Source of the DNA: Kangiella marina
GTDB taxonomy: Bacteria > Pseudomonadota > Gammaproteobacteria > Enterobacterales > Kangiellaceae
Direction: 5' to 3'
Length of the DNA: 64,000 bases
Assembly (NCBI RefSeq): GCF_039541235.1
Contig: NZ_BAABFV010000001.1
Coordinates: forward strand, 558,001-622,000
Shown in pieces: positions 1-22,389 of the stretch; within the stretch, counting starts at the first letter, position 1; every line of letters begins with the position of its first letter. The notes beneath the pieces were generated by a model. That model searched no databases. It was not told the DNA's origin and worked only from the letters and a program-made list of their open reading frames with translations. The position numbers and the translations under genes were made by a program.

Positions 1-3000
1 CACCAGCGACTTCACCGTTTAAAGTAACCGTGAAAGTTGCTATACCAGCATTTTCATCAACCGTCACATCAGCAACAGTCACGCTAGCCGAGTCGTTATC
101 TGAAATGGTTACCGTATCACTCGCAGTATTGATAGAGCCATTGCTAACCGCAGAGATCGTGGCTATGACGGTCTCATCACCTTCTAATACAAAGTCATCG
201 ATGACGTTAACCGTTACTGTCGCACTCGTGGCACCCGCAGGAATAACCACACTGGTTGTTCCTGCGCCTCCGCTAAGATTGTAATCATCAGTATCTGTTG
301 CAGTGCCTGTATAACCAATCGTTACGGTAGTATCAGTAGAGCTTGTGGTATTAAGGCTAATGGTGAACAAGCCATTAGCGCCGCCCTCAACGGCAGCCGA
401 AGTCGCAGCAACCGACACTTCCAAGGTATCATTGTCGGTGATGGTGCCAGTAGCGGTATCCGTATCGGTTATAGAAGCGTTAACTGCATCGATATTAACG
501 GTAAAGGTTTCCGCTTCTTCGACAATAGTGTCCTCATTGATAGTGACAACAAATGTTTGAGTCTCACCGGCGTTACCAACAAAGGTCACACTGCCAGCAG
601 TATTAACAAAATCATCGCCACCAGTAGCAGTACCATTGGTAAAGCTGTAGTTTACATCCGTTCCGCCAGCCACATCACTATCCAATGTCACCGTGAAGGT
701 AGCCGTCCCAGCAGCCTCGCTCACAGTCACATCATCAACCGTTACCGTCGCCGTATCATTATCGGTAATGGTAGCCGCACCTTGAGCATCACTAAAGCTC
801 ACGCTGGCGTTACTCAAATTGGTTAAATCTAGAGAAAAGCCTTCGTCACTTTCGACGATTGTATCGTTCGTAATCGGCACATTGATGGTAATGGTTTCAC
901 CACTATTACCAGTAAACGAGCCACTGCCAGAAGTCGCTGTATAATCACTACCCGCTGTCGCTGTACCGTCAGTTGTGGCGTAGTCAAAACTCACGCCACC
1001 ATCAACGTCACCCGTTAAGGTCACCGTGAAGACGGCATTAATTCCATCTTCTGCAACCGTCACGTTATTCACCGCAACCGAAGCGGTGTCATTATCCGTA
1101 ATCGTACCTGCGCCTTGAGCATCGCTGAAGCTGACGCTAGCATTACTTAAGCCGCTTAAATCAACGGTAAAGCCTTCATTGCCTTCAACGATGGCATCAT
1201 CGGTAATTGGCACCGTAATCGTTTGTGTCTCACCGTTCGTGCCGTTAAAGCTTAAACTGCCGCTCGCCGCAGTATAGTCACTGCCTGCCACCGCCGTACC
1301 ATCATTGGTGGCGTAATTGAGCGTGAAGCCATCTTGAACGTCGCCCGTTAACGTCACGGTAAAGGTCGCATTCGAGCCATCTTCGCCAATACTGACGTCG
1401 TCAATCGCCACCGTCGCCGTGTCGTTATCGGTAATGGTGCCTTGGCCTTGATTGTCCGAGAAGGTAACGCTCGTATTATCCAGATTACTTAAATCAAGGG
1501 TGAAGCCTTCATTGCCTTCAACCACCGCATCGTCAGTGATCGGCACATTAATCGTAATCGTCTCACCATTGGTACCGGTAAAGGTTTCCGTACCAGAAGT
1601 CGCGGTGTAATCGCTGCCCGCTACTGCAGTACCGTCGGTCGTGGTGTAGTTGAAACTCACCCCGCCTTGAACGTCGCCCGTTAACGTCACCGTAAAGACG
1701 GCGTTAATACCATCTTCCGCCACCGTGACATCATTCACCGCCACCGTCGCGCTGTCATTATCCGTGATCGTGCCCAAGCCTTGATCATCGGCAAAAGCCA
1801 CACCGGTGTTATCCAAGTTGCTTAAGTCCAGCGTGAAGGTTTCATTGCCCTCGACCACTGCATCATTGGTAATCGGCACATTAATCGTCACCGTCTCACC
1901 ATCGTTTCCGACAAAACTTCTAGTTCCTGAAACAGCAGTATAATCGTCACCCGCCGTCGCTGTGCCATCGGCTGTCGTAAAGTCTAGGTTGAAGCCATTC
2001 TGGACATCACCGCTTAGCGTGATGGTAAAGGTTGCGTTGGTACCATCTTCCGCAATGGTCACATCATCAATCGATATTGAAGCGCCATCATCGTCAATAA
2101 TCGTACCGGTCGCGGTATCAGTGTCAGTCACTAAAGCGTTGACCGCATCAAGATTAACCGTGAAAGTTTCGGTACCTTCAACTAGAGTGTCATCGGTAAT
2201 CGCTACGGCGAAGGTTTGAGTTTCACCATCAGCACCGGTGAAAGTTACGCTGCCAGCGGTACTGTTATAATCCGTGCCGCCTGTTGCTGAACCGTCAGTA
2301 AAACTGTAGTTAACGTCAGTGCCACCCTCGACCGCGCCATTCAAAGTAATGGTAAATGTGGCCGAGTTAGCGGCTTCATCCACACTAACATCGGCAACGG
2401 TGACGCTAGCCGAGTCGTTATCTGAAATGGTTACCGTATCACTTGCAGTACCGATAGAGCCGTTGCTAACCGCAGAGATAGTAGCAACAACGGTTTCATT
2501 ATTTTCCAATAAGTTATCATCAACCACGTTGACACTAACCACGGCTGTTGTTGAACCTGCAGGAATGGTTACAGAGGTAGTACCGCTGGCGCCTGTCAAA
2601 CCATAGTCATCAGGATCAATTGCCGTCCCGTTATAATCAATGGTAACCGTTGTATCCGTTGCGCTGGTCGTATTTAGGCTAACCGTAAACTGCCCATTAG
2701 CGACTCCTTCGGTAGCGGCAGCTGTAGTCGCAGCAACCGACACTTCCAGATTGTCATTATCCGTAATTGTGCCTTGGCCTTGATTATCCGTGAAGGTAAC
2801 GCTCGTATTATCCAGGTCACTTAAATCGAGGGTGAAGCCTTCACTGCCTTCAACCACCGCATCATCGGTGATCGGCACATTAATCGTAATCGTCTCACCA
2901 TTGGTACCGGTAAAGCTTTCCGTACCAGAAGTCGCGGTGTAATCGCTGCCTGCTACTGCGGTACCGTCGGTCGTGGTGTAGTTAAAACTCACCCCGCCTT

Positions 3001-6000
3001 GAACGTCGCCCGTTAACGTCACCGTAAAGACGGCGTTAATACCATCTTCCGCAACCGTGACATCATTCACCGCCACCGTCGCCGAGTCGTTGTCATTAAT
3101 AATACCAATGCCTTGCCCGTCAGCCAGTGTCACTGATGTATTACTAGTGTTTGATAAGTTGACGAAGTAACTTTCAGCGGTTTCTGCAACGGCATCGTCA
3201 GTGATAGTCACGATTATCGTTTGCTGCTCACCATTAGTACCAGTGAAATTTAACGTGCCTGTTGCTGTCGTGTAATCACTTCCCGCCAAAGCTGTGTTAT
3301 CAGCTGTTGCATAGTCAACTGAAACCCCATCTTGGACATCACCCGTTAAAGTTACGGTAAAAGTTACCGTGCCACCAGCTTCGCTAACCACTGTGTTATC
3401 AATAGCTAAACTGGCGGTGTCATTATCCGTAATCGTACCTGCGCCTTGAGCATCGCTGAAGCTGACGCTAGCATTACTTAAGCCGCTTAAATCAACGGTA
3501 AAGCCTTCATTGCCTTCAACGATGGCATCATCGGTAATTGGCACCGTAATCGTTTGTGTCTCACCGTTCGTGCCGTTAAAGCTTAAACTGCCGCTCGCCG
3601 CAGTATAGTCACTGCCTGCCACCGCCGTACCATCATTGGTGGCGTAATTGAGCGTGAAGCCATCTTGAACGTCGCCCGTTAACGTCACGGTAAAGGTCGC
3701 ATTCGAGCCATCTTCGCCAATACTGACGTCGTCAATCGCCACCGTCGCCGTGTCGTTATCGGTAATGGTGCCTTGGCCTTGATTGTCCGAGAAGGTAACG
3801 CTCGTATTATCCAGATTACTTAAATCAAGGGTGAAGCCTTCATTGCCTTCAACCACCGCATCGTCAGTGATCGGCACATTAATCGTAATCGTCTCACCAT
3901 TGGTACCGGTAAAGGTTTCCGTACCAGAAGTCGCGGTGTAATCGCTGCCCGCTACTGCAGTACCGTCGGTCGTGGTGTAGTTGAAACTCACCCCGCCTTG
4001 AACGTCGCCCGTTAACGTCACCGTAAAGACGGCGTTAATACCATCTTCCGCCACCGTGACATCATTCACCGCCACCGTCGCGCTGTCATTATCCGTGATC
4101 GTGCCCAAGCCTTGATCATCGGCAAAAGCCACACCGGTGTTATCCAAGTTGCTTAAGTCCAGCGTGAAGGTTTCATTGCCCTCGACCACTGCATCATTGG
4201 TAATCGGCACATTAATCGTCACCGTCTCACCATCGTTTCCGACAAAGCCTTGACTGCCACTAGTGGCGATGTAATCACTACCCGCTACAGCAGTACCGTC
4301 CGTGGTTGTGTAATCAAAATTCACACCACCTTGAACATTGCCACTCAAGGTTACGACGAACGACGCACTACCATCAGCTTCATTAACCGTAACGTTAGTT
4401 ACTGAAACAGAAGCAGCATCATCGTCGTTAATGTTAACCGTATCTGAGGCATTAGTGATGGTACCGTTCGACACCGAGTCGATGGTCGCGATGACCGTTT
4501 CGGTTGGCTCTACCACGTTATCGTCTAAAACTTCTACCGCCACGGTTGCAAAGGTGTCGCCAGCAGCAATGACTACCGAGGTAGTTCCATTAACACCATT
4601 TAAACCGTAATCAGCGGGATCAGTTGCTGTCCCTGAATAAGTCAAGGTCACTGTTGTATCGGTAGCGCTTTGGGTGTTTAGACTGATTGTAAACTCGCCA
4701 TTAGTGACCGGCTCACTTGCTGTGGCCACACTCGCAATAACTGAGACCTCTAAATTGTCATTATCAACAATGGTGCCAGTCGCGGTATCGGTATCATTGA
4801 CCTGCGGGTTGACCGCATTCAGGTTAACAGTAAAGGTTTCATTACCTTCAACCAAGCCATCATCCGTGATATTAATGGTGAAGGTTGCAGTTTCGCCCGC
4901 AGTACCCACAAATGCCACGGTACCACCCGTACTGTCATAATCCGTACCACCGCCCGTTGCTGTTCCATCAGTAAAGCTATAATTAACGTCAGTACCGCCA
5001 TCAACAGCATTGCTCAATGTGATGGTAAAGGTCGCGGTGCCCGCTCCCTCGTTCACGTTGACATCATCCACCGTTACCGAGGAATTATCATTATCGGCAA
5101 TAGTCACCGTACCGGTATCATTGCTAATAACACCATTACTGACACTGGTAATGGTCGCAATAACCGTTTCGCTTGATTCGACCAGATTATCATCAGTCAC
5201 ATCGACAGCGACCGTGGCTGAGGTATCGCCCGCAGGAATGGTTACCGTGGTGGTTCCTGAAGCGCCCGTCAATGCATAATCAGAACCGTCAACTGCCGTT
5301 CCGGTGTAGTCAATGGTAATGACGGTGTCGGTAGAGCTTTCAGCGCTTAGGCTAATGGTAAACTCTCCATCCGTCATAGGTTCTGAAGCATTAGAGACTG
5401 TCGCTAAAATCGAGGTTGTTAGCGGCGTGTCATCATCGCTAATAGTACCTGTTGCAATATCAGTAGCATCAACTAGCGTATTGCTTGCCGATAGATTGAC
5501 GGTAAAGGTTTCATCAAACTCTACGATAGCGTCATTGGTAATAGGCACAAGGATATCGATAAACTCACCGTTTGTGCCCACGAAGCTCACAGTATTGCCA
5601 GTACTATCATAATCCGTACCGCCACCTACTGCTGAACCGTCTGTGAAGCTGTAAGTAACATTGGTGCCGCCATCGACATCACCATTTAAGGTAATTCTAA
5701 AGGTTGCATTACCTGCATCTTCCGATACTGTCACATCTTCAACGGTGACAGAAGCTGTGTCATCTGACTCGATAGTAACAGTATCCGTAGAACCACTGAT
5801 CGTGCCGTTGTCCGTTGACGTAATGGTGGCTATCACCGTCTCATTAGCTTCGACAAGTGTGTCGTCAAGCACCTCGACGATCACAATCGCATCGGTTGAA
5901 CCTGCCGGAATGACAATAGTTGTCGTACCATCAACACCTGTTAAATTGTAATCGGATCCGCCTGTAGCAGTCCCCGTATAATCAAGCGTGATTGTCGTGT

Positions 6001-9000
6001 CTGTGGCGCTAGTCGTGCTCAGGCTGACCGTAAACTGACCGTCAGTCGCAGGTTCTTGTGCTGTTGGAATAGTCGCTACAACCGAAACCGTTAAGGCATC
6101 ATCATCGACAATGGTGCCGATGGCTGTGTCGGTATCAATAACGTTTGGATTAACCGCATCAAGGTTAACGGTAAAGGTTTCGTCACCTTCTACAGTCGCA
6201 TCATTGGTAATCGCAACAGTGAAGGTCCGAGTTTCACCAGCAGTACCTGCAAACGTTACTGTGCCGCCCGTACTGTCGTAATCCGTTCCACCACCGGTAG
6301 CCGTTCCATCAGTAAAGCTATAATTCACATCAGTACCGCCAGCAATGGCTTCTTCTAAGGTAATGGTGAAGGTTGCCGTACCATCCGCTTCATTAACGCT
6401 AACATCATCAACCCACACGCGAGAGTCATTATCGGCAATAGTCACCGTGTCTGTCGCTGTGCCAATACTGCCGTTGCTGACTGCGGTGATGGCGGCTTCG
6501 ACAGTTTCGCTGCCTTCCACAAGAGCATCATCAATGACGTCAACCGCTACTGTTGCACTAGTGCTGCCAGCAGGTATGGTCACGCTGGTGGTGCCTGAGG
6601 CGCCGATTAAATTATAATCCGAAGCCGTTGTCGCTGTTCCGGCATAATCAATAAATACGGTGGTGTCAGTGTCGCTTGGGTTACTGAGTGAGACCGTAAA
6701 CTCGCCATCTGTTGCTGGCTCAGAAGCAGCTGCAACACTCGCTGCAATACTCGCCGTTAATGCGTCATTGTCTTCAATCGTACCAGTCGCCGTATCCGTA
6801 TCGGTCACGCTTGGATTGTCAGCGCTTAAAGAGACCGTAAAGGTTTCATTACCTTCAGTAATATTATCGTCGGTGTAAGCGACGGTGAAGGTTTCCGTCT
6901 CGCCCGCGGTACCCGTAAAGGTAACAGTACCGCCAGTGCTGGCATAATCGGTACCTCCACCCGTTGCGGTGCCGTCAGTAAAGCTGTAGGTGACATTCGT
7001 ACCACCCGCAACATCGTTATCCAAAGTGATGGTAAAGGTAACGCTGCCAACACTTTCATTAGCTGACACATCTTCAACCGTTACCGTTGCCGCATCATTA
7101 TCAGCAATTTCTACCGTCGCTGAGGAGTTGGCAATGGTGCCCTCACTCACAGTGTTGATGGTTGCAATAACCGTTTCCGTTGGCTCGACGATCGTATCGT
7201 CAGCCACATTCACCGCGACAGTCACACTCGAAGTACCCGCCGGAATAACCACAGTCGTCGGATCTACAACTCCTGATAAACTATAATCCCCAGGGTTAGC
7301 AGCGGTTCCAGAGTAACTGAGATTAACCGTCGTATCTTCCGTGCTGACGTTATTCAGACTGATCGTGAACTCACCGTCAGTACCAGGCTCAGAAGCATTA
7401 GCAACACTGGCGAATACAGATACTTCCAATGTTTCATCATCAATAATTGTGCTCGCAGAATCACTGTCATTAATGACAGGATTAACAGCGTTTAAATTGA
7501 CTGTAAAAGTTTCATTGCCTTCGTAGATGGCATCATTAAAAATATCAACGGTGAAGGTTTGAGTCTCGCCCGCATTACCGATAAAAGTGACGCTACCATT
7601 GGTGTTATCATAATCAACACCGCCAGTTGCCGTTCCATCGGTAAAGGAGTAATTGACCACACTGCCACCTTGAACCGCATTATCCAAAGTCACTGTATAG
7701 GTTGCAGTACCGGCATCTTCGTCAATAGTCACGTTATTAATGGTTAAACTGGCAATATCGTTATCCGTGATGGTTCCTAAGCCTTGGTTATCGCTTAATG
7801 TCACGCCCGCCTGATTGACATTAGATAAGTCAACGAAATAGGTTTCGCTAGATTCCGCAACGGCATCATCGGTAATGGATACAGTTATCGTCTGCGTTTC
7901 ACCATTAGTGCCCGCGAAGTTTAGTGTGCCGGTATTTGCTGTGTAATCGCTGCCAGCATTAGCAGTATCGTCAGATGTCGCAAAATCAACAGAAACGCCA
8001 CCTTGCACCTCCCCCGTTAAGGTTACGGTAAAGATCGCGCTACCATCTAATTCATTCACTGAAACATCGTCAATCGCTAGGCTTGCATTATCGTTATCAT
8101 TAATAATGCCAATGCCTTGCCCGTCGGCCAATGTCACCACTGGATTACTGATACCTGATAAGTTCACAAAGTAACTTTCAGAACTTTCTACAACCGCATC
8201 ATCGGTGATCGTCACGGTTATTGTTTGCTGCTCACCATTAGTACCAGCGAAATTTAACGTACCGGTTGCGGCAGTGTAATCGCTCCCCGACAATGCCGTG
8301 TTATCAGCCGTTGCATAATCGACCGACACTCCACCTTGAACATCACCGGTTAAGGTTACGGTGAAAGTTGCCGTGCCATCAGCTTCGCTGACCGCTCTAT
8401 TATTAATGGCTAAACTGGCATTATCATTATCCGTGATCGTACCCACGCCTTGGGAGTCAGAAATAGTAACAAGACTGTTTGAAAGGTTTGATAGATTCGC
8501 AAAGAAAGTTTCGGTCGCCTCAGCAACACCATCATCCGTAATTAGCACCGTGAAGCTCTGCATTTCACCATTGTTGCCTGTGAAATTTAATGTCCCCGTA
8601 GTAGCCGTATAATCACTCGCTGCAACCGCAGAATTGTCGGCAGTCGCGTAATCAACGGTGAAGCTATCTTGTACATTTCCAGTTAGGGTCACGTCAAAAG
8701 TAGCCGTACCGTTTGCTTCATCAACAGTAACATCGCCTATCGCAATACTTGCCGTATCATTATCCGCGATATTAACGGTTGCACTGTTTTGGGCTCCAAT
8801 AGTTGCATTACCGCTACTGACCGTATCTAAAGTGACAACCACCGTTTCAGTTGGCTCAACTAACGAATCATCAATCACCAACACATTCACGTTAACTGAA
8901 GTTGTATTAGCAGGAATTGTGACGCTACTGACAAGAGTCGCATAATCTGTTCCCGCTACGGCGGTACCACCCGCAGTAATATTAACTACCGTATCGGTAT

Positions 9001-11494
9001 CAGACGGATTGCTTAGACTAAAAGTAAACTGCCCCGCAATACCACTTCCTTCAGCGGTATCAGCAGTTGCCGCGATTGTAACCTCAGTGGCATCATCATT
9101 ATTAATGGTGCCGTTCGCGCTTGCCGTGGTAATAGCAGCATTACGAGAGGGGTTTGAAATTGTTAAAGCAACAGTTTCATCTGACTCAACCTTTAAGTCA
9201 CCATTGACTGTTACTGAAATTGAAGTACTGGTACTGCCCGCTGCAATAGTGCCACTTCCGCTTGCAGCAACATAATCACTGTCCGCCGTTGTAGCCGTAC
9301 CATCTGAGGTAGCAAAATCAAACGTTACTTCGGACTCACTGGTCACCGCATTTGCGAATTGCACCGTGTAGTTCAAAGTCACTGTCCCGTTATTACCTTC
9401 AACAACACTTGTCGGCAACACTTCTAATTCAGCAGTATCATTGTCATCAATGGTCACGGTAGCTTCATTGCTACCGGCATCAATAGTTCCATCAGAAGTT
9501 GTGCTTAAAGTCACAACGACTGTTTCAGCGCCTTCAACTATCGTGTCGTCAGCTACTGTAACATCAACGGTTGCGCTGGTATCACCAGCCGGGATCGTCA
9601 CGGTACCTGAAAGAGCCGTATAATCGTCAGTAGCAGTAGCCGTACCAGAAACGGTATAGGTTACTGTAGTATCAACCGAACTAGGATTGCTTAAACTAAT
9701 GGTAAACTGGCCATTATTAATGGGCTCTGCAGCTAAAGCATCGTTCGCTGCAACGCTAACCGTAAACTCGTCATTATCCTGAATCGTGTATGTGTTTGTT
9801 GACTGAGCATTCGCATCGCCATTGGCATCACCAACAATTAATCGTGGATTGACGCTTTCCAAAACAAAGTCTATGGTTTCATCTGCTTCAAAAAGAGTAT
9901 CGTCAACTACCGATAAGTTAATTGGCACCGAAGTTCCAGCACCACCGCCATAAGTCCCCGCAGGTATAACAATTGTGACCACATTCGTATAGTCAACACC
10001 AGAGCCCGTCGCCGAACCGCCGGTAACGTTAATGTTGATGTCTGTGTCATTTGGTAATACCCCTAACAGTCTTAGCCTTGGTTGGACGGTAACGGACTCA
10101 TCAGCAGAATCAGTAGCAGAGTCAAACTCGATCAACACTACTGAGTCGTTATCCTGAATGGTGACAACCCCTGCACCATCATTGATCGTCGCTAGCCCAC
10201 CAGTAATATTAGAGAGTGTTAAGTTAAAGGTTTCATTATTCTCTATAGAGCTATCATCGTTGATAGTGACTGAAATTGACTGCACTTCACCATTATTACC
10301 TACAAAGCTTAACGTGCCAGAGTTAGCGATATAATCTTGAAGCATGCCTGCCTGAGCGGTGCCATTCGACGTTGCAAAGTCCACGTCAAAACCAGACGCC
10401 GTTGAACCAGTCAAAGTAACGTCGATAGTAGCCGTGCCTGCCGCTTCATTGACGGTAATATCAGCGATTGAGACACTAGCTGCATCATCATTTTCAATCA
10501 CTGTATTCGCGACAGCGTCTGACGCTGTCGCATTGGAAGAAATATTGCTTAAGGTAACGCTAAAGTTTTCATTAGGTTCTACTACCGTGTCGCCATTCAC
10601 TGTAACGCTGACCGTTGCACTACTAGTTCCTGCCAAAATCGTTCCAGTTACAGAACCATTTGCTACAGCGACGTAGTCTGAGCCTGCTAGCGCTGAGCCA
10701 TCGGTGGTAAAATAATCGAAAGTAATGTCATCACTGGTCGTGACAGCATTGGTGATGCTCACTGTATAAGTAAAGGTTGTGGTACCAGCATCAGTTTCTA
10801 GCTCTGACACATCAGCAATGCCGATTTGAGCTTGCGGGTTGACCACTAAGTCAGCAGACGCTGCTGGGCTTGCTCCCATTCCCGTGTCCAATGCTCCGGC
10901 TGGGATCTGGTTGGTATGAGTACCTGCCGAAGAACTGGTTACCTCGGCGGTGATGGTACAAGAACTATTTGCAGGGATAGTGGCGCCAGAGCCGAGCGTG
11001 ATTGATGAGCCGCCATCAGCCGCTGTTAAAACCCCAGTACCGCCACAGGAATCCGTAGCATTTGAAGGCGTTGCCAAAACAACTCCTGCAGGTAGATTAT
11101 CAACAAAATCGGCTTGAAGAGTGGCTTCAAAATCATTTGAATTACTCAACGTAAGGGTAAGGGTCGAAAGGCCATCAAAGTCTATGGTCGACGGTGAAAA
11201 AGACTTGGTCGGCTGAGGAATAACGACATTCAGTGAGCTTGAATCTGTCGAGCATGCTGCAATAGTCGGATCGGCAACAGTACAACCGCCATTTGTATTG
11301 TTAGCGGTATTATCATCAGTAACATTCGTAGGTAACGTTACGGTAACGGTATTCTCAATGGTTGAAGGGTAATCAACTGCTAAAGCTATGTTAGAAAACA
11401 GTACAACCGTTATTAAAAATAAATACTTAGAACACTTAACAGAAAACTTGGTAAAAGCACCCCAGTTAACCCAACTATTACTTAAAACTACCAT
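1..11494 (-). CDS. Giant secreted Calx-beta repeat protein, N-terminal part (C-terminus outside window)
   Basis: One uninterrupted minus-strand frame runs from the ATG at 11494 to the window edge, 3831 codons, with no stop seen. Residues 1-39 look like a Sec signal peptide ending SNIALA, followed by VDYPST. Next comes a domain beginning KSFSPSTIDFDG that resembles DUF7933/DUF11 modules, with paired cysteines, up to about residue 210. From about 10.85 kb down to base 1 there are about 32 Calx-beta-like units. Each carries a DND-type junction, a GSDY or GTAVAGSDY-type strand and a VTVxDDxxVE(G/P)NE-type strand. The units repeat every 333 bp (111 residues) over most of the length. Calx-beta arrays bind calcium and occur in large bacterial surface adhesins and matrix proteins; an adhesin role here is inference. 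The anchor or secretion signal at the C-terminus cannot be seen. The start has only a weak upstream AGG. All plus-strand open frames over it are shadows. Confidence 0.93.
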   Translation of the reverse strand, partial: MVVLSNSWVNWGAFTKFSVKCSKYLFLITVVLFSNIALAVDYPSTIENTVTVTLPTNVTDDNTANNTNGGCTVADPTIAACSTDSSSLNVVIPQPTKSFSPSTIDFDGLSTLTLTLSNSNDFEATLQADFVDNLPAGVVLATPSNATDSCGGTGVLTAADGGSSITLGSGATIPANSSCTITAEVTSSSAGTHTNQIPAGALDTGMGASPAASADLVVNPQAQIGIADVSELETDAGTTTFTYTVSITNAVTTSDDITFDYFTTDGSALAGSDYVAVANGSVTGTILAGTSSATVSVTVNGDTVVEPNENFSVTLSNISSNATASDAVANTVIENDDAASVSIADITVNEAAGTATIDVTLTGSTASGFDVDFATSNGTAQAGMLQDYIANSGTLSFVGNNGEVQSISVTINDDSSIENNETFNLTLSNITGGLATINDGAGVVTIQDNDSVVLIEFDSATDSADESVTVQPRLRLLGVLPNDTDININVTGGSATGSGVDYTNVVTIVIPAGTYGGGAGTSVPINLSVVDDTLFEADETIDFVLESVNPRLIVGDANGDANAQSTNTYTIQDNDEFTVSVAANDALAAEPINNGQFTISLSNPSSVDTTVTYTVSGTATATDDYTALSGTVTIPAGDTSATVDVTVADDTIVEGAETVVVTLSTTSDGTIDAGSNEATVTIDDNDTAELEVLPTSVVEGNNGTVTLNYTVQFANAVTSESEVTFDFATSDGTATTADSDYVAASGSGTIAAGSTSTSISVTVNGDLKVESDETVALTISNPSRNAAITTASANGTINNDDATEVTIAATADTAEGSGIAGQFTFSLSNPSDTDTVVNITAGGTAVAGTDYATLVSSVTIPANTTSVNVNVLVIDDSLVEPTETVVVTLDTVSSGNATIGAQNSATVNIADNDTASIAIGDVTVDEANGTATFDVTLTGNVQDSFTVDYATADNSAVAASDYTATTGTLNFTGNNGEMQSFTVLITDDGVAEATETFFANLSNLSNSLVTISDSQGVGTITDNDNASLAINNRAVSEADGTATFTVTLTGDVQGGVSVDYATADNTALSGSDYTAATGTLNFAGTNGEQQTITVTITDDAVVESSESYFVNLSGISNPVVTLADGQGIGIINDNDNASLAIDDVSVNELDGSAIFTVTLTGEVQGGVSVDFATSDDTANAGSDYTANTGTLNFAGTNGETQTITVSITDDAVAESSETYFVDLSNVNQAGVTLSDNQGLGTITDNDIASLTINNVTIDEDAGTATYTVTLDNAVQGGSVVNYSFTDGTATGGVDYDNTNGSVTFIGNAGETQTFTVDIFNDAIYEGNETFTVNLNAVNPVINDSDSASTIIDDETLEVSVFASVANASEPGTDGEFTISLNNVSTEDTTVNLSYSGTAANPGDYSLSGVVDPTTVVIPAGTSSVTVAVNVADDTIVEPTETVIATINTVSEGTIANSSATVEIADNDAATVTVEDVSANESVGSVTFTITLDNDVAGGTNVTYSFTDGTATGGGTDYASTGGTVTFTGTAGETETFTVAYTDDNITEGNETFTVSLSADNPSVTDTDTATGTIEDNDALTASIAASVAAASEPATDGEFTVSLSNPSDTDTTVFIDYAGTATTASDYNLIGASGTTSVTIPAGSTSATVAVDVIDDALVEGSETVEAAITAVSNGSIGTATDTVTIADNDSRVWVDDVSVNEADGTATFTITLEEAIAGGTDVNYSFTDGTATGGGTDYDSTGGTVTFAGTAGETRTFTVAITNDATVEGDETFTVNLDAVNPNVIDTDTAIGTIVDDDALTVSVVATIPTAQEPATDGQFTVSLSTTSATDTTITLDYTGTATGGSDYNLTGVDGTTTIVIPAGSTDAIVIVEVLDDTLVEANETVIATITSTDNGTISGSTDTVTIESDDTASVTVEDVTVSEDAGNATFRITLNGDVDGGTNVTYSFTDGSAVGGGTDYDSTGNTVSFVGTNGEFIDILVPITNDAIVEFDETFTVNLSASNTLVDATDIATGTISDDDTPLTTSILATVSNASEPMTDGEFTISLSAESSTDTVITIDYTGTAVDGSDYALTGASGTTTVTIPAGDTSATVAVDVTDDNLVESSETVIATITSVSNGVISNDTGTVTIADNDNSSVTVDDVNVNEGAGTATFTITLSNAVDGGTDVNYSFTDGTATGGGTDYDSTGGTVAFVGTAGETATFTINITDDGLVEGNETFTVNLNAVNPQVNDTDTATGTIVDNDNLEVSVIASVATASEPVTNGEFTISLNTQSATDTTVTLTYSGTATDPADYGLNGVNGTTSVVIAAGDTFATVAVEVLDDNVVEPTETVIATIDSVSNGTITNASDTVNINDDDAASVSVTNVTVNEADGSASFVVTLSGNVQGGVNFDYTTTDGTAVAGSDYIATSGSQGFVGNDGETVTINVPITNDAVVEGNETFTLDLSNLDNTGVAFADDQGLGTITDNDSATVAVNDVTVAEDGINAVFTVTLTGDVQGGVSFNYTTTDGTAVAGSDYTATSGTETFTGTNGETITINVPITDDAVVEGNEGFTLDLSNLDNTSVTFSDNQGQGTITDNDTATVAIDDVSIGEDGSNATFTVTLTGDVQDGFTLNYATNDGTAVAGSDYTAASGSLSFNGTNGETQTITVPITDDAIVEGNEGFTVDLSGLSNASVSFSDAQGAGTITDNDTASLAIDNTVVSEAGGTVTFTVTLTGDVQDGVSVDYATADNTALAGSDYTTATGTLNFTGTNGEQQTIIVTITDDAVAETAESYFVNLSNTSNTSVTLADGQGIGIINDNDSATVAVNDVTVAEDGINAVFTVTLTGDVQGGVSFNYTTTDGTAVAGSDYTATSGTESFTGTNGETITINVPITDDAVVEGSEGFTLDLSDLDNTSVTFTDNQGQGTITDNDNLEVSVAATTAAATEGVANGQFTVSLNTTSATDTTVTIDYNGTAIDPDDYGLTGASGTTSVTIPAGSTTAVVSVNVVDDNLLENNETVVATISAVSNGSIGTASDTVTISDNDSASVTVADVSVDEAANSATFTITLNGAVEGGTDVNYSFTDGSATGGTDYNSTAGSVTFTGADGETQTFAVAITDDTLVEGTETFTVNLDAVNALVTDTDTATGTIIDDDGASISIDDVTIAEDGTNATFTITLSGDVQNGFNLDFTTADGTATAGDDYTAVSGTRSFVGNDGETVTINVPITNDAVVEGNETFTLDLSNLDNTGVAFADDQGLGTITDNDSATVAVNDVTVAEDGINAVFTVTLTGDVQGGVSFNYTTTDGTAVAGSDYTATSGTETFTGTNGETITINVPITDDAVVEGNEGFTLDLSNLDNTSVTFSDNQGQGTITDNDTATVAIDDVSIGEDGSNATFTVTLTGDVQDGFTLNYATNDGTAVAGSDYTAASGSLSFNGTNGETQTITVPITDDAIVEGNEGFTVDLSGLSNASVSFSDAQGAGTITDNDTASVAVNNVTVAEDGINAVFTVTLTGDVDGGVSFDYATTDGTATAGSDYTATSGSGSFTGNSGETITINVPITNDTIVESDEGFSLDLTNLSNASVSFSDAQGAATITDNDTATVTVDDVTVSEAAGTATFTVTLDSDVAGGTDVNYSFTNGTATGGDDFVNTAGSVTFVGNAGETQTFVVTINEDTIVEEAETFTVNIDAVNASITDTDTATGTITDNDTLEVSVAATSAAVEGGANGLFTISLNTTSSTDTTVTIGYTGTATDTDDYNLSGGAGTTSVVIPAGATSATVTVNVIDDFVLEGDETVIATISAVSNGSINTASDTVTISDNDSASVTVADVTVDENAGIATFTVTLNGEVAG
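1083..1915. repeat. 833-bp perfect direct repeat, copy A
   Basis: Base-by-base comparison shows this block identical to 3414-4246, at an offset of 2331 bp (7 x 333). It spans about 2.5 Calx-beta units inside the giant gene and keeps the frame. Divergence resumes abruptly on both sides: ACCGAA versus CTAAACTG on the left, and ACAAAACTTC versus ACAAAGCCTT on the right. Confidence 0.95.
2771..3082. repeat. Third, slightly diverged copy of part of the 833-bp repeat
   Basis: This block matches 1439-1750 (offset 1332, or 4 x 333) and 3770-4081 (offset 999, or 3 x 333) with only scattered substitutions. It covers about one Calx-beta unit, and indicates repeated exchange between units of the array. 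Confidence 0.85.
3414..4246. repeat. 833-bp perfect direct repeat, copy B
   Basis: Identical to 1083-1915 in every line compared. Perfect identity over 833 bp, including synonymous positions, while neighbouring units differ at many bases, points to recent duplication or gene conversion. Confidence 0.95.
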
Positions 11495-12181
11495 TTAATT
11501 TAAGCCTACCCAACTTATAAAACGAACCAAAGCACCCTTGAGTGCTTTGGTTTTTCAATTCAAACAAGCTGCTTTGAGCAGCCACCTGTCACGCCAAAAG
11601 AAAACTCCAGTGGAAGTTTTGTGTAACAGTTCCTCAATACCCGATCTAACGACAGAAATAATCACTTCTCATCAAAACTCAGTGACGGAACTCTCAATAG
11701 TAGCCAATCTCTATCGTCTGAAATATTTACACTTGCGCTTTCTAATTGTTCGTTAGCTATAAATCAAGACTATTTCTAGTGAAAGTCTAATAGATTCAAT
11801 ATATTACAAAGACGGCTCTTTCACATTCTAGTGCCCTACCCTACAAGTTAGGTCACTCAATAAAAGAGTATATTGCGATTGCATCAATACGTAAAACTTC
11901 GACACAAGGATTTCACAATTTTTTATAATTACCCTTAAATCAATAAGTTATGAGTCGTTTCACTTGAAGTAATTATTAGCTGATTTTGATATATAATCTA
12001 AATTTGAAGTTAACTACCAACTGTCTGAATATTATACAACAAGTTAATGCAAATATGAGAGTCATTTCTGCAGTATTTACATAAGATTTATCTTGAGACT
12101 AGCAACCCATGTACGATTTTCAAACTAACAATTTGATATATGTAGAAAAACACTTAAGGAGGAAGAGAAATTTTAATAAAT
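11495..12181. other. Intergenic region between the giant gene and tRNA-Pro
   Basis: 687 bp, AT-rich. It holds the hairpin cluster at 11527-11620 and must carry the promoter of the giant gene (minus strand). Short open frames at 11538-11756 and 12109-12309 have no recognisable protein features and I do not call them. No riboswitch consensus was recognised. Confidence 0.6.
11527..11620 (-). promoter_or_regulatory. Three-hairpin untranslated leader candidate of the giant gene
   Basis: Three consecutive inverted repeats lie 33-126 bp upstream of the ATG: CCAAAGCAC/GTGCTTTGG (11527-11535/11542-11550), GCTGCT/AGCAGC (11568-11573/11577-11582) and AAAACT/AGTTTT (11601-11606/11615-11620). The first is followed by TTTTT on the plus strand, so it could instead stop antisense transcription. 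The third is followed by CTTTT in the minus direction and could act as a weak attenuator. The function is inference. Confidence 0.4.
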
Positions 12182-12258
12182 TGGTCGGAGCGAGAGGATT
12201 TGAACCTCCGACCCCTTGCACCCCATGCAAGTGCGCTACCAAGCTGCGCCACGCTCCG
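12182..12258 (-). tRNA. tRNA-Pro (anticodon GGG)
   Basis: On the minus strand a 77-nt cloverleaf is seen. The acceptor stem is CGGAGCG/CGCTCCG with discriminator A and an encoded CCA. The D arm has GCGCAGCTTGGTAGCGC, the anticodon stem is CTTGC/GCAAG with loop ATGGGGT (anticodon GGG, reads CCC), and the T arm has GGTTCAAATCC. It lies just downstream of the merR-like gene on the same strand. Confidence 0.96.
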
Positions 12259-12275
12259 ACAATAGAAAGGGAAAA

Positions 12276-12303
12276 TGAAAACGGCGTAATAGTACCGTTT
12301 TCA
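12276..12303 (-). terminator. Terminator-like hairpin after the ihfA/merR end
   Basis: The inverted repeat TGAAAACGG/CCGTTTTCA has a 10-nt loop and a TTTT run shortly after it in the minus direction. It lies between the MerR-like gene and tRNA-Pro and could end the pheST-ihfA transcript. The U-tract is weak, so read-through into the tRNA is possible. Confidence 0.45.
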
Positions 12304-12342
12304 CCATAAATTACAATATTAAAATTGGATTTTGTTTGAGAT

Positions 12343-12693
12343 TTAAATTGAAAGGAATCGCTTAATTTTTTCTAACTCTTCAATGATTTCATCGATTTGA
12401 GCTTTTTCAGCCGGAGAACCGTCCTCGCCACCCTCTTCTAAACACTGACGAGCACCACCAATGGTGTAGCCGTGTTCATAAAGTAATGAGCGAATTTGAC
12501 GGACAATTAACACATCTTCGCGCTGATAATAGCGACGGTTTCCACGTCTTACCGGATCTAGTTGTTCGAACTCCTGTTCCCAATAACGCAATACGTGCGG
12601 CTTTACCGCACATAAATCACTTACTTCACCAATGGTAAAATAACGCTTGCCTGGAATTGCTGGTAATTCGTTATTATTGCTCGGTTCCAACAT
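12343..12693 (-). CDS. MerR-family transcriptional regulator downstream of ihfA
   Basis: 116 residues. A MerR winged-helix occupies about residues 17-85 ([21 protein letters not shown], then RRGNRRYY for the wing), followed by a short acidic helix. It lacks the long effector-binding C-terminus of metal-sensing MerR proteins. The gene overlaps the 3' end of ihfA by 20 bp, the usual arrangement of the small MerR-like gene found after ihfA in many gammaproteobacteria. Its target is unknown. It is probably cotranscribed with pheST-ihfA. Confidence 0.88.
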
Positions 12694-12973
12694 AGTCCGC
12701 TACTTTCCCTCTAAGTTTTTGCCCTGGTTTAAACGTAACAACTCGACGCGCACTGATAGGAACTTCTTCCCCAGTTTTTGGGTTACGTCCAGGGCGCTGC
12801 GCTTTATCACGCAATTCAAAATTACCGAAGCCAGAGAGCTTGACATTATACCCCTGCTCTAAGGAATCGCGGATCTGCTCAAAAAAAGCTTCTACAATTT
12901 CTTTAGACTCACGCTTATTCAAGCCCAGCTCTTCATATAAACGTTCTGCCATATCAGCTTTTGTTAATGCCAT
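12674..12973 (-). CDS. ihfA: Integration host factor subunit alpha
   Basis: 99 residues starting [20 protein letters not shown]. The DNA-binding beta arm carries [12 protein letters not shown] with the helix-kinking proline region, and the C-terminus ends in the [11 protein letters not shown] segment typical of IHF/HU. The ATG at 12973 is chosen because GGAG sits 7 nt upstream; a TTG two codons earlier is not needed. IHF-alpha pairs with IHF-beta (not in the window) to bend DNA. It follows pheT by 44 bp, the conserved pheST-ihfA order. Confidence 0.97.
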
Positions 12974-13017
12974 AATCAATCTCCGCTATTTCACCTGTTA
13001 GGCTCTTGTATTCACAC

Positions 13018-15396
13018 TTAGTTTCTTAGGACCGCGCGGTACTCTTCTTCTAAGCCTGTGACAACTTTGTCCACAACAGAATTTATTTCCGCATCTTCTA
13101 ATGTCTTTTCGGGATGACGTAGGGTCATAGCCAAAGCGACACTTTTCTTTCCATGATCAAGATGCTCACCCTTGTATATATCAAAAATAAAGGCGTCTGT
13201 CAGTAAATTCCCACCAATTTTTACAATAAAATCAATTAATTCCCCACCTTTTACCGTTTCGTCTACAATCACAGCGAGATCCCGACGAATCGAAGGAAAC
13301 TTCAATAAAGGTGCGAATTTAGGCAATTCTCGCTCAGATAAGGCCTCTAAATCGATTTCAAAGACAAAAGCATCAAGGTCTAAATCCACTTTTTGTTGGA
13401 TTTCTGGGTGCAGTTTCCCCAAATAACCAACGACTTTTCCACCCAGTACAATATCAGCAGACTGTCCCGGATGAAGGATTTCTTTGCTCGATGGCTTGAA
13501 CTCAAACCGGCGCTTCGTGGTCGATAATAAAGCCTCTAAATCACCTTTGATGTCGTAGAAATCAACTTTTCGTGCATCACCATTCCATGACTCGGTGTAA
13601 CGACGACCTGCTAGCAAGCCGGCCAATGTTGGAATTTGTTGCAACTCATCGCCCGAAGTGTCAAAACGCAATCCCATCTCAAAGAAACGAATTCGGCTTT
13701 GCTGACGGTTGATATTGAACTTTGCCGCGCTCACTAACCCTGTTAATAGATTGGTGCGCATAACGCCCATTTCGCTTGAAATCGGGTTCATTAAAGCGAG
13801 TGGCTTTAACTCTGGCTCTAACACCGCTTGTAGTTTTGGTTCAACAAAGCTGTAAGTAATCGCTTCTTGGTAGCCACGATTGACCAGCAACTCACGCAGC
13901 AGATCCTTGAATATGCGGTTCTCGTTCTGCATAAACATAGCCATCTCCCCCTGCGGCTTACGAATCGGCAGGTTGTTATAGCCATAAACACGGACGAGTT
14001 CTTCAATTAAGCTTTCTTCGTTATCGATATCAAATCGGAAACTTGGAACAGAAACATCCCAACCTTCATCAGCTGGGGTTAACCCTAACCCCAAACGGGT
14101 CAAAATATCTTCAACCTGAGCATCATCAAAGCTCACGCCAACCACACGCTTAATTCGCTCACGACGCAACGTCAGGTGACGTTTTTCAGGCATAGCCGAT
14201 TGATCTTTAGCCTCGATAATCGCACCCGGCTGACCGCCCACAATTTCAAGCAGTAACTCAGTCGCTCGCTCCATCGCGGTACGTTGAAGCTCATAGTCCA
14301 CACCGCGCTCGTAGCGGTGTGATGCATCTGTATGCAGGCCATATTGACGCGCTTTACCGGCTATAGCGATAGCATCGAAATACGCGCTTTCTAAGAAAAT
14401 ATCTTTAGTTTCTGAATTAACGCCTGAATGCTCACCACCCATCACACCTGCAATAGCAAGCGGTTTCGAGCTATCTGCAATCATCAAAGTATCTTCAGTT
14501 AACTCAACTTCTTGCCCATCAAGCAGTGTTAACTTTTCATCTTTTTTAGCCATGCGCACGTCAATGGCACCATCGATTTTAGCCAAGTCGAATGCGTGCA
14601 TCGGGTGTCCCATCTCTAACAACACATAGTTCGTCACATCGACTACAGGATCAATCGAGCGAACGCCAGAACGTTCGATACGCTGCACCATCCATTGCGG
14701 TGTTTGCGCTTCAGGGTTAACCCCCTTAATCACTCGGCCTAGGTAGCGTGGGCACGCTTGTGGCGCGCTTAGCTTGATATCTAACTTATCACTGACTTCG
14801 CTAGCAACGGCTTTAGGTTCAACAAAGTTAACGTCTTCTTGAGTGAGTACGCCAACTTCGCGCGCGATACCGCGGACGCCTAAACAGTCGCCACGGTTTG
14901 GCGTTAAATCAACGTCAATCACATGGTCTTCTAAGTTTAGAAGTTGTTTTAAATCTTGTCCTAATGGTGCTTCAAGCGGTAATTCAACAATACCATCGCT
15001 GCCTTCACCGATATTAAGCTCAGTTTCCGAACACAACATACCGAAAGAGTGTACGCCACGAAGCTTCGCTTTCTTAATTTTAAAATCACCCGGTAAAACA
15101 GCGCCAATCATCGCCACCGCTACTTTGATACCCTTGCGAGCATTCGGTGCACCGCAGATGATTTGTAACTCTTCATCGCTGGCATCGCCCACATTGATCG
15201 AACAAACCTGTAATTTGTCCGCATCAGGATGCTGTTCAGCTGCAACGATCTCCCCGACGACCACGCCAGTGAAGCTATCACCTAAATACTCAAAACCATC
15301 GACTTCCAAACCCGCCATGGTCAACTTATCAACTAATTCTTGAGTGGAAATTTCAGGGTTAACCCACTCACGCAACCACTGTTCACTAAATTTCAT
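13018..15396 (-). CDS. pheT: Phenylalanine-tRNA ligase beta subunit
   Basis: 792 residues, the normal bacterial length. Near the N-terminus (residues 40-150) is the tRNA-binding OB domain with VVVGEIVAAEQHPDADKL. The B3/B4 editing region and B5 domain follow (RRERIKRVVGVSFDDAQVE at about 405-425), and the C-terminal 95 residues form the ferredoxin-fold anticodon-binding domain (FPSIRRDLAVIVDE). It assembles with PheS into an alpha2-beta2 enzyme charging tRNA-Phe. It is separated from pheS by 182 bp, longer than usual, with a structured repeat-like sequence in the gap. Confidence 0.98.
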   Translation of the reverse strand: MKFSEQWLREWVNPEISTQELVDKLTMAGLEVDGFEYLGDSFTGVVVGEIVAAEQHPDADKLQVCSINVGDASDEELQIICGAPNARKGIKVAVAMIGAVLPGDFKIKKAKLRGVHSFGMLCSETELNIGEGSDGIVELPLEAPLGQDLKQLLNLEDHVIDVDLTPNRGDCLGVRGIAREVGVLTQEDVNFVEPKAVASEVSDKLDIKLSAPQACPRYLGRVIKGVNPEAQTPQWMVQRIERSGVRSIDPVVDVTNYVLLEMGHPMHAFDLAKIDGAIDVRMAKKDEKLTLLDGQEVELTEDTLMIADSSKPLAIAGVMGGEHSGVNSETKDIFLESAYFDAIAIAGKARQYGLHTDASHRYERGVDYELQRTAMERATELLLEIVGGQPGAIIEAKDQSAMPEKRHLTLRRERIKRVVGVSFDDAQVEDILTRLGLGLTPADEGWDVSVPSFRFDIDNEESLIEELVRVYGYNNLPIRKPQGEMAMFMQNENRIFKDLLRELLVNRGYQEAITYSFVEPKLQAVLEPELKPLALMNPISSEMGVMRTNLLTGLVSAAKFNINRQQSRIRFFEMGLRFDTSGDELQQIPTLAGLLAGRRYTESWNGDARKVDFYDIKGDLEALLSTTKRRFEFKPSSKEILHPGQSADIVLGGKVVGYLGKLHPEIQQKVDLDLDAFVFEIDLEALSERELPKFAPLLKFPSIRRDLAVIVDETVKGGELIDFIVKIGGNLLTDAFIFDIYKGEHLDHGKKSVALAMTLRHPEKTLEDAEINSVVDKVVTGLEEEYRAVLRN

Positions 15397-15449
15397 AGCA
15401 TTTATCCAGTTTTAGCCAAATGTTATGGCCATAAAAATTCTTTTCATAA

Positions 15450-16604
<1,155 letters not shown>

Positions 16605-16649
16605 TCATCATTTGTCGTATAAAACTTTTCTTAACAAAAAGTGTGGCAT

Positions 16650-16680
16650 AAAAAAAGGAAGAGCATTTCTGCCCTTCCTT
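16650..16680 (-). terminator. Terminator or attenuator between rplT and pheS
   Basis: In the minus direction AAGGAAG...CTTCCTT, with an extra GC/GC pair inside, is followed by seven Ts. A second dyad (TTCTTTA.../...TAAAGAA, about 16735-16762) lies just upstream and could be an alternative structure. No Phe-rich leader peptide was seen, so a pheM-like mechanism is not supported; an L20-operon terminator is the simpler reading. Confidence 0.75.
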
Positions 16681-16777
16681 TAAGACTTTAATCGTTTGTC
16701 ATCGCAGTCGTAAAACAACCTTGGCAACAAATGCTATTCTTTAACTTAGTATCAAACTAAAGAACAGAGTGCTTAGA

Positions 16778-17137
16778 TTAAGCGTCTAGGACAGATTTAG
16801 CTTGGTCTGCAAAAGCAGCAAAAGCCACTTTATCAAAAACTGCCAATTCTGCTAGCATTTTACGATCAACTTCAATGTTTGATTTTTTCAAACCATTGAT
16901 AAAACGGCTATAAGACAAACCGTGTGTACGCGCCTCAGCGTTAATACGTGCAATCCATAAAGAACGGAATTGACGCTTACGTTGGCGACGGTCACGATAT
17001 GCATATTGACCCGCTTTAATTACAGCTTGTTTAGCTACACGATAAACACGACTACGTGCACCGTAATAACCTTTAGCTTGCTTTAAAACTTTTTTGTGAC
17101 GTGCGTGAGCTGTCACACCGCGTTTTACTCTTGCCAT
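16778..17137 (-). CDS. rplT: 50S ribosomal protein L20
   Basis: 119 residues, very basic, starting [16 protein letters not shown] with the family signature [18 protein letters not shown] at about residues 53-70. L20 binds 23S rRNA early in large-subunit assembly. In enterobacteria it also represses its own operon by binding the mRNA; whether that holds here is not visible. It lies 17 bp after rpmI, preceded by a GAGG ribosome-binding site. Confidence 0.98.
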
Positions 17138-17154
17138 TTCTTAATCCTCACCCA

Positions 17155-17352
17155 TTAACCGTTAGGAAGCATACGATCGATTTGCTTTGTATCCGCGGCA
17201 TCAACTAGCTTGCCGTGGCGCAAATGACGCTTACGCTTGGTGGATTTCTTGGTCAAGATGTGACGCAAGTGTGATTGCTTGTGCTTATAACGACCCGAAG
17301 CTGTTTTTTTGAAACGCTTCGAAGCACCGCTGTCAGTTTTCATCTTTGGCAT
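17155..17352 (-). CDS. rpmI: 50S ribosomal protein L35
   Basis: 65 residues starting [20 protein letters not shown], with the typical lysine-rich [14 protein letters not shown] tail region. The ATG at 17352 gives the standard family length; an upstream in-frame extension ([12 protein letters not shown]) is rejected as unlike L35. It is a component of the large ribosomal subunit in the infC-rpmI-rplT unit. Confidence 0.97.
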
Positions 17353-17530
17353 AATAATATACTCGCATTTGATTACTGTCATGGCCATTTCCCTCGCCGA
17401 AGCTTGGGCAATCGTTTGTTGCCATGATGAGTTACTAAAACGGATAATTCAGCTAACGCCGATTTATCCAACCTATTGAAGCAAAGTAAGCGCCTTTCGG
17501 ACTTCTATCCAGCTATTGCTGAAAGCTCAA

Positions 17531-18064
17531 TTACTTCTTCTTGTTGGGGGCAACCACCATCGTCATTTGACGACCTTCCATTGATGGACGTTGCTCAACT
17601 GAACCGTATTCTTCCAGGTCTTTTTCGACACGCTTCAATAACTCCATTCCGAGTTCTTGGTGCGCCATCTCACGACCACGGAAGCGGACAGTGATCTTCG
17701 TCTTGTCCCCATCTTCCAAGAAACGTATAAGGTTGCGTAGTTTTACCTTATAGTCCCCTATATCCGTCCCTGGGCGAAACTTAATTTCTTTGACTTGGGT
17801 AACTTTCTGCTTCTTTTTAGCAGCAGCTTTCGCTTTCTTCTGCTCAAACAAGTATTTACCAAAGTCCATAATTTTACAGACTGGAGGATTCGCATCCGGT
17901 GATACTTCTACTAAATCTAGCGACGCTTCTTGAGCTTGTGCTAGAGCATCCTTTGTATCAACCACACCAACATTTTCACCGTCGGCTTGAATTAAGCGAA
18001 CTTCTTTCGCTCGAATATTTTCATTTATGCGCTGTCTATCGTCGCGCTTTTGACCTTTTTTAAT
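17531..18064 (-). CDS. infC: Translation initiation factor IF-3, non-standard ATT start
   Basis: With an ATT start at 18064 the protein has 177 residues, beginning (M)[24 protein letters not shown]. This aligns with the E. coli IF-3 N-terminus, which also uses AUU. AGAGGA lies 8 nt upstream. Starting at the first ATG/GTG-type codon (17965) would cut off most of the N-terminal domain. The C-terminal domain contains [19 protein letters not shown] and [15 protein letters not shown]-3 blocks premature subunit joining and proof-reads start codons. In enterobacteria the AUU codon allows autoregulation, and the same is likely here. Confidence 0.95.
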
Positions 18065-18100
18065 GTGTCTAATCCTCTAATTGGTTAAAATTAAGTCAAA

Positions 18101-20020
18101 TTAATCAGCCTTTCTTGCTCGCTTAGCGACTTCCGCTTCAAGCAATTCAGCAAAGGCATCAATGCTCATGCTACCCAAATCCTCGCCTTCACGAGTTCTG
18201 ACAGCAACCTGACCATTTTCAACTTCACGATCCCCGACTACCAGTAAGAACGGAACACGTGCTAATGTCTGCTCGCGAATTTTAAATCCGATCTTCTCAT
18301 TTCTCAAGTCCGAATTTACCCTAAATCCTTTATTTTTCAAGGAATCGACCGTTTTTTGGCAAAAATCGGCCTGTTTATCGGTAATATTCATGATGACGGC
18401 CTGAGTTGGCGCTAACCAAGCCGGGAATTTTCCAGCGTATTCTTCGATTAAAATACCGATAAAACGCTCTAATGATCCCAAAATAGCACGGTGAAGCATC
18501 ACCGGAACTTCTCTTTCGCCGCTTTCGGCGACAAATTCAGCGCCTAAACGACCCGGCATTGAGAAATCTACTTGGATAGTACCACACTGCCAATGACGCT
18601 CTAAGCAATCTTTTAAAGTAAACTCAAGCTTTGGCCCATAAAACGCACCCTCGCCTGGCTGATATTCGAATTCAATATTGTTCGCTTTCAGTGCATCCGC
18701 CAGCGCAGCTTCCGCTTTATCCCAGACTTCATCCGAACCGACGCGCTGCTCTGGACGAGTCGACAGCTTTACGATGACGTCAGTGAAGCCGAAGTCACGA
18801 TACACGTCATACAGCATCTCAATAAACTTCGAGACTTCTTCTTGAATCTGGTTTTCTGTACAGAAAATATGCGCATCATCCTGTACAAAGTTACGCAAGC
18901 GCATGATGCCATGTAACGCGCCTGACGGCTCATTACGGTGACATGAACCAAATTCCGCCATGCGTAACGGCAAATCACGGTAGCTCTTTAAACCCGAGTT
19001 ATAAATCTGTACGTGACATGGGCAGTTCATCGGCTTAATCGCGTAGTCGCGCTGATCCGATTCAAGCGTAAACATGTCGTCGCCGAACTTATCCCAGTGA
19101 CCCGATTTTTCCCACAAGCTACGATCGACGATTTGAGGCGTCTTCACTTCTTGATAATCGTGCTCTTTTAAGCGATCACGAATGTACTGCTCAAGCGTTT
19201 TATAAATTGACCAGCCTTTGTCGTGCCAGAAAATCATGCCTGGCGCTTCTTCCTGTAGATGGAACAAGTCTAATGCTTTACCAATTTTACGGTGATCACG
19301 TTTTTCGGCCTCTTCAAGACGTCTCAAATAGGCTTTAAGCTCTTTCTTATTGGTCCAGGCCGTACCGTAAATACGTTGCAACATTTCATTGTTCGAATCG
19401 CCGCGCCAGTAAGCTCCAGCAACCTTCATCAACTTAAACGCTTTCAGTTTTGAAGTGCTAGGAACATGCGGGCCACGACACAAGTCGATAAAGTCACCTT
19501 GGCGATATAACGATAACGCCTCATCGCTTGGAATCGACTCGATAATTTCTGCCTTGTACTCTTCACCCATGTTACGGAAAAAGGCAACCGCTTCGTCACG
19601 CTCCATTTCCGTACGCTCGACTTGAAGATTTTCTTTTGAAATCTTCTCCATCTCTTTCTCGATAGCGCGCAGATCGTCTTCTGTAAACGGCTTTTCCGTC
19701 GCGAAGTCATAGTAGAAACCATGATCAATCACGGGGCCAATGGTGACTTGAACGTTATCAAACAAACGTTGAACTGCTTGTGCCAACAAGTGAGCCGTTG
19801 AGTGACGGATAATCTCTAAGCCATCTTCATCACGCTCAGTGATAATCGCCAGCTGAGCGTCGGAATCCATGACATAACTGGTATCAACCAGCTTTCCGTC
19901 CACTTTTCCAGCTAAAGCAGCTTTGGCTAAACCAGGGCCAATATCGTTCGCTACATCATGTACAGAAACGGCGTTATCAAACTCGCGTTGACTTCCATCG
20001 GGTAAAGTAATTACAGGCAT
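18101..20020 (-). CDS. thrS: Threonine-tRNA ligase
   Basis: 639 residues. A TGS domain ([14 protein letters not shown]) comes first, then the editing domain with the [12 protein letters not shown] metal-binding HxxxH at about 75-80. The class II core includes motif 2 ([19 protein letters not shown]) and the zinc-ligand Cys in MNCPCH. The C-terminal 100 residues form the anticodon-binding HGTP domain ([13 protein letters not shown]). It begins 6 nt after an AGAGAG site and is first of the translation cluster; infC starts 36 bp downstream. Confidence 0.98.
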
Positions 20021-20702: not shown

Positions 20703-20712
20703 GCATCCTAGC

Positions 20713-22382: not shown

Positions 22383-22389
22383 ATTACTA

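Follow-up and report, generated by a model that had tools for sequence, protein, structure and literature searches.

Two segments of a giant Calx-beta gene in Kangiella marina appear to be kept alike by gene conversion

An 833-bp sequence occurs twice in a giant Calx-beta gene

We analyzed a 64,000-nucleotide stretch of the Kangiella marina genome (contig NZ_BAABFV010000001.1, positions 558,001 to 622,000, hereafter the window), which contains the larger part of a giant gene built from tandem Calx-beta units. The gene lies on the minus strand at window positions 2 to 11494, encoding the first 3831 of 5382 amino acids (aa), and continues below window base 1; as a whole it occupies G000:C1:553346-569494 (G000 being this genome) and forms an open frame. 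The protein matches the Pfam Calx-beta family PF03160 with 1268.7 bits against a curated cut-off of 27, which places it in the family, and a hidden Markov model (HMM) started from one unit found 34 Calx-beta units. Bacterial Ig-like, cadherin, Calx-beta, and OmpA domains were found by Pfam in the C-terminal 1617 aa.

Two copies of an 833-bp block were identified in this gene, at window positions 1083-1915 and 3414-4246 (minus strand). As the gene is read from the minus strand, the copy at 3414-4246 is the upstream one (copy A; gene nucleotides (nt) 7249-8081, the second half of unit 20 and units 21 and 22) and that at 1083-1915 the downstream one (copy B; gene nt 9580-10412, the second half of unit 27 and units 28 and 29). 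An earlier note on this DNA had described a perfect internal pair with silent sites included and sharp boundaries, and each of these points was borne out. All 833 of 833 bases match, the match cannot be extended by a single base to the left or right, and the spacing is 2331 bases, or 7 x 333. None of the approximately 157 silent sites differs between units 21 and 28 or units 22 and 29. At an offset of 2331, identity is 1.00 within the block and about 0.5-0.65 beside it, with values of 0.53 and 0.56 over the 90 bases on either side. Because identity drops to about 0.5-0.6 directly past both ends, a run of 833 matching bases by chance is out of the question. When exact direct repeats of at least 40 bp were enumerated, this pair was the longest in the window, followed by one of 68 bp. 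A DNA search of the block against its own genome found places within the giant gene only, two perfect and three weaker.

Two simple origins of the pair were considered and rejected. A fresh tandem duplication of 2331 bp should also have left the 1498 bp after each block matching, but identity there is about 0.5-0.65 at offset 2331; further along, the best match with gaps allowed reaches 72% across 689 bp (offset 2325). Nor can an inserted extra 833 bp account for the array: this length is not divisible by 3 and yet the register is kept, so the block would have to be a replacement.

The same units are paired in related species

To place the pair in context we compared Kangiella genomes, one per species. 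The C-terminal 583 aa of the protein had full-length matches in 12 of the 41 genomes searched, namely its own genome and 11 relatives, all of the same genus, and in the remaining 29 only short matches to the OmpA-like end were found. The Calx-beta array was present in 5 of 20 genus genomes including this one (E <= 1e-30): G000, G001 (K. taiwanensis), G006, G008 (K. spongicola), and G014. All five species are colinear over units 1-34 (read from two contigs in G001), and 0-4 extra units follow unit 34.

In four of the five species with the array, a long and nearly identical pair of that species' own lies at the same units, again seven units apart. Besides the perfect pair of K. marina, these are 1343 bp with 1 mismatch at offset 2337 in G014, 870 bp with 7 mismatches at offset 2331 in G008 (containing 674 bp without a mismatch), and 443 bp with 10 mismatches at offset 2331 in G001, where a further stretch that overlaps this one matches at 686 of 735 positions. 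The edges are sharp in G000 and G014 and softer in G008 and G001, where flank identity is 0.84-0.91 on at least one side, as would be expected of older tracts. The recurrence of the pair at the same units and at offsets of 2331 or 2337 suggests that the duplication is old and that the identity alone is young; the 7-unit duplication is most likely older than the split between the five species. Of the two origins offered by the earlier note, gene conversion is supported, while very recent duplication is not, given the same-unit pairs in four of five species and the unmatched flanks. The very high within-species identity in four species could in principle also reflect a separate recent duplication at the same place in each of them. 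This is scarcely credible, as all four would have had to hit the same units at an offset of 2331 or 2337 with the unit number remaining constant, and the flanking sequences are unlike.

The gene is hard to assemble: in 7 of the 11 relatives its frame is cut off by a contig end, and in an eighth it contains a run of N. In K. taiwanensis the break lies inside copy B: one contig ends, and another begins, with the same 735 bp. An assembly artefact, in which a copy was wrongly inserted or near-identical copies were merged into one consensus, therefore has to be weighed for the K. marina pair. We regard it as very improbable, given that the array matches those of separately assembled relatives in register and in its number of units. 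An extra copy put in by mistake would raise that number, and the frame is open over 5382 aa. Minor differences between copies A and B could, however, have been smoothed away in assembly.

Paralogous units are more alike within four of five species than orthologous units between species

We compared the paired units within each genome. For units 20/27, 21/28, 22/29, and 23/30, respectively, identities were 76.1, 100, 100, and 56.1% in G000; 99.7, 100, 100, and 98.2% in G014; 96.4, 97.6, 100, and 96.4% in G008; 97.3, 92.8, 92.1, and 93.6% in G001; and 71.5, 62.4, 61.4, and 90.0% in G006. Mean identity between species was 67-76% for units 20-23 and 27-30 and 68-76% for units 21, 22, 28, and 29 alone; over the block region, individual identities between species were 71-82% without copy B of G006 and 61-63% with it. 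At units 20-23/27-30, paralogs within a species are thus closer than orthologs between species in four of the five; in G000 this holds for 20b-22/27b-29 alone.

Silent sites gave the same picture. Silent divergence at units 21/28 and 22/29 was 0 in G000 and in G014, 0-0.08 in G008, and 0.30-0.34 in G001, and across units 20-23 it was 0 in G000 (units 21 and 22), 0-0.05 in G014, 0-0.14 in G008, and 0.10-0.34 in G001. Of 20 between-species comparisons of units 21-22 and 28-29, 16 gave values of 0.78-3.1 and the other four were beyond correction (pS >= 0.74). For units 1-19, silent divergence between species was beyond correction in 7 of 10 comparisons.

In a tree of the block region, copies A and B are sisters in G000, G014, G008, and G001, while copy A of G006 joins the G014 pair and copy B of G006 forms a long separate branch. 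Forcing all copies A into one clade, with the identical rows of G000 and G014 left free, cost 348 log units and was rejected (p-AU 6.5e-6).

Signs of homogenization all involve units 20 onward

Units 1-19 (window 4418-10828, minus strand) belong to the same repeat family and served as an internal control. In K. marina their longest internal exact repeat is 23 bp and they bear no sign of homogenization. In a control tree, units 9-11 and 16-18 were split by position with support of 100/100. These are unlike unit types and hence an easy control, so a like-typed control was added, in which units 12-13, 14-15, and 18-19 each formed one clade per position (100/100, 100/100, and 94/94). Identity of these like-typed pairs was 62-71% within species versus a mean of 73-79% between species. 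At the 7-unit offset, where unlike unit types are compared, units 1-19 were 35-60% identical in all five species.

Across the five species, 44 of 2805 pairs of units were closer within the species than to any ortholog, and each of the 44 includes at least one unit of 20-34. Among the 855 pairs with both units in 1-19, none was closer within its species than either unit was to any ortholog. The longest exact repeat is 18-34 bp inside units 1-19 versus 158-1271 bp in units 20 onward (five species; for G001 the latter value covers the first-contig part only). The minimum length of identity for recombination is usually put at some tens of bases, and the contrast between the two parts of the array is consistent with such a limit.

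Age and extent of the 7-unit duplication

The two segments of the putative old duplication are units 20-26 (window 2084-4414, minus strand) and units 27-33 (window 1-2083 for units 27 onward, minus strand, the last ones lying beyond the window). When units were compared across species, the partner seven units downstream was the best paralog for units 21, 22, 23, 25, and 26, the second for unit 20, and the fourth for unit 24. We repeated the ranking without G000 and G006, because units of theirs look overwritten; the 7-unit partner was then first for units 20-25 and second for unit 26. Units 20-23 form a well-supported core of the old pair, and units 24-26 are moderately supported.

In K. marina, unit 23 (window 3086-3415, minus strand) looks like an overwritten unit, being similar to unit 8 (83%) and unlike unit 30 (56%). 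Unit 24 (window 2753-3082, minus strand) is 95% identical to units 21 and 28, with a best core of 215 bp and 5 mismatches at 3- and 4-unit offsets, and we read it as a second, older tract.

Repeated intragenic gene conversion as the probable cause

The reading that we favor, with a probability of roughly 85%, is that an old 7-unit tandem duplication (units 20-26 and 27-33) has been followed by repeated gene conversion within the gene, leading to concerted evolution of the two segments. An ancestral tandem duplication of seven Calx-beta units would have created the segments. Homologous recombination within the gene would then repeatedly overwrite about 0.4-1.3 kb of one segment with the sequence of the other, leaving the number of units unchanged; an offset made up of complete units would preserve the reading frame. 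The 833-bp identity would be the most recent such tract in K. marina, with its edges falling where the segments have diverged. The copying step would be RecA-type and non-reciprocal. When units 20a and 27a were compared with relatives, the matches listed gave no sign of direction, either from A to B or from B to A. Matches to the Escherichia coli Chi octamer (GCTGGTGG) occur at gene nt 8116 and 11488 and, in reverse, at 4904, though the Chi of Kangiella may differ. The Chi-like site 35 bp past the end of copy A was rejected as evidence, as a single site proves nothing and the octamer is that of E. coli.

Several observations weigh against this interpretation. Two unequal crossovers, one in which mispairing adds seven units and a second that removes seven and leaves a patch of identity, would yield the same final sequence as conversion, and a process that changes repeat number does act in the giant gene, as the numbers of cadherin-like and Ig-like units vary between species. 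We nevertheless consider this two-step route unlikely, since no array with seven units more or fewer was found in the five species, all of which are colinear to unit 34. The extension of the duplication over all seven units is only moderately supported: the margins by which the 7-unit partner ranks first for units 23, 25, and 26 are below 1 point, and unit 24 ranks its partner fourth. G006 lacks the 7-unit pair at units 20-22/27-29 (61-72%); instead, its units 23-30, 33, and 34 are alike at several other offsets. The one-clade test rests on species other than G000 and G014 and includes the long branch of copy B of G006. Silent divergence between species goes down to 0.78 (G014 and G001, units 28-29), about twice the value within G001. 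Finally, the evidence consists of assemblies, with one genome per species.

We infer that units 20-34 are still similar enough to recombine, which would make the process self-sustaining, and that units 1-19 no longer participate, since they share no exact stretch longer than 34 bp. Within G006, identity is 98.5-98.8% for units 23/27 and 24/28 (four apart) and 99.4% for units 25/34 (nine apart). We give even odds to a broader view in which units 20-34 would be a self-sustaining recombination island within one gene, recopied many times over the history of these species at distances of 3, 4, 7, 9, and 15 units, while units 1-19 dropped under the required similarity and became frozen. The same view, on which our confidence is again evenly divided, would have one reading frame combine a frozen part, a converting part, and a part in which repeat number varies between species.

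The process itself is of a known kind, and the bacterial Calx-beta array provides a clear new example of it. Among the records listed in one open library of papers, we found no report of conversion inside such an array, nor any of Kangiella with Calx-beta, and the sole match there for Calx-beta with gene conversion concerns tandem repeats of a sea anemone (PMC2805694). Long-lasting concerted evolution in prokaryotes has been documented for 26 genes (PMC6053082). In the case of tufA and tufB in Gammaproteobacteria (PMC5485169, PMC6053082), copies in the same genome are kept alike by conversion in contiguous tracts; whereas tufA and tufB are separate genes, the copies here are segments of a single reading frame and lie seven domain units from each other. 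For Salmonella tuf genes in strains lacking mismatch repair, the mean length of an unrestricted tract was fitted at about 1000 nt (PMC5485169), and the 0.4-1.3 kb of the present tracts is in keeping with it. Spidroins of Argiope spiders, judging by the title of one paper, likewise have repeats homogenized inside one gene (PMC3933166), but that is a eukaryotic silk gene, and the present case is a bacterial array with a fixed register in which one part only is homogenized.

If correct, this reading shows how repeat domains in bacteria could stay identical in the long term without a change in array length, and where such homogenization stops. As the homogenized and frozen parts share a gene, a genome, and a history, the gene would supply an internal control for measuring how similar repeats must be to recombine. 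The case also calls for caution, as identical blocks may be old pairs with recent exchange rather than recent duplications, and such blocks break assemblies.

The largest difference in protein length lies mainly in other repeat arrays

The earlier note had suggested that protein length varies between strains; the comparison here is between species. We compared the intact proteins of three species, which have 5382 aa in G000, 5536 aa in G014, and 8155 aa in G006. They contain 34, 37, and 38 Calx-beta units, 3, 3, and 19 cadherin-like units, and 5, 3, and 12 Ig-like units, respectively. The cadherin-like and Ig-like counts were made with single-sequence HMMs, by which diverged units may be missed, but the length sums suggest that few were. 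In G006, the 16 additional cadherin-like, 7 Ig-like, and 4 Calx-beta units account for 2759 of the 2773 aa in excess of G000, and in G014 three more Calx-beta and two fewer Ig-like units account for 147 of 154 aa. The largest length difference between species is therefore mainly due to the cadherin-like and Ig-like arrays, and none of the differences is a change of the 833-bp block. The cadherin-like array of G006 consists of 19 units of 312 bp (gene nt ~13447-19371, L028/L029), with exact repeats of up to 777 bp at multiples of 312, and is the part most variable in number.

Both G006 (residues 4021-4481) and G001 (residues 835-1295 of an open reading frame (ORF) in L056) have four extra Calx-beta units after unit 34. 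These resemble units 2-5 of the same gene (72-73%, first 1.05 kb) and one another (78.9%). We interpret them as an old copy that has not been homogenized, which makes them a useful contrast to units 20-34. The repeats preceding the shared C-terminus vary among species. A further relative, G016, has the same C-terminus with different repeats, located at nt 523-4849 of the longest reverse-strand ORF in L035; its exact repeats reach 1182 bp, most of those listed at multiples of 372 bp.

The protein and its neighborhood

The giant protein is probably a Ca2+-binding envelope or surface protein, anchored via its C-terminal OmpA-like domain. An NCBIfam model for a Ca2+-stabilized adhesin repeat matched with 60.2 bits (cut-off 50), and the relatives with solved structures that were found are chains of Na/Ca exchangers (12 sequences). 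Involvement in biofilms is known for one Calx-beta adhesin (PMC12153261). The Kangiella protein resembles BapP of Pseudoalteromonas tunicata and LapA in its tandem Calx-beta and Ig-like units and, presumably, in being a Ca2+-dependent surface protein. Unlike them, it has a C-terminal OmpA domain and a far longer array, and no RTX family was found in its Pfam scans.

We listed the neighboring ORFs and searched nine other genes against family models. Directly downstream lies a 1241-aa ORF (L006:11437-15162, minus strand) that shares 17 bases with the end of the giant gene. By eye it resembles an outer-membrane barrel protein, no NCBIfam model matched it, and it is possibly a partner of the giant protein. 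Genes resembling a type I restriction-modification system, judged by eye from their translations, are also located downstream of the giant gene (L006:3967-10921, minus strand). Window 11000-25000, compared with plasmid sequences, gave 12 records whose short matches fall in conserved stretches, at which a feature is annotated as thrS. Elsewhere in the window, positions 41385-44474 of the plus strand encode a 1029-aa two-component regulator propeller protein with Y_Y_Y and GGDEF domains.

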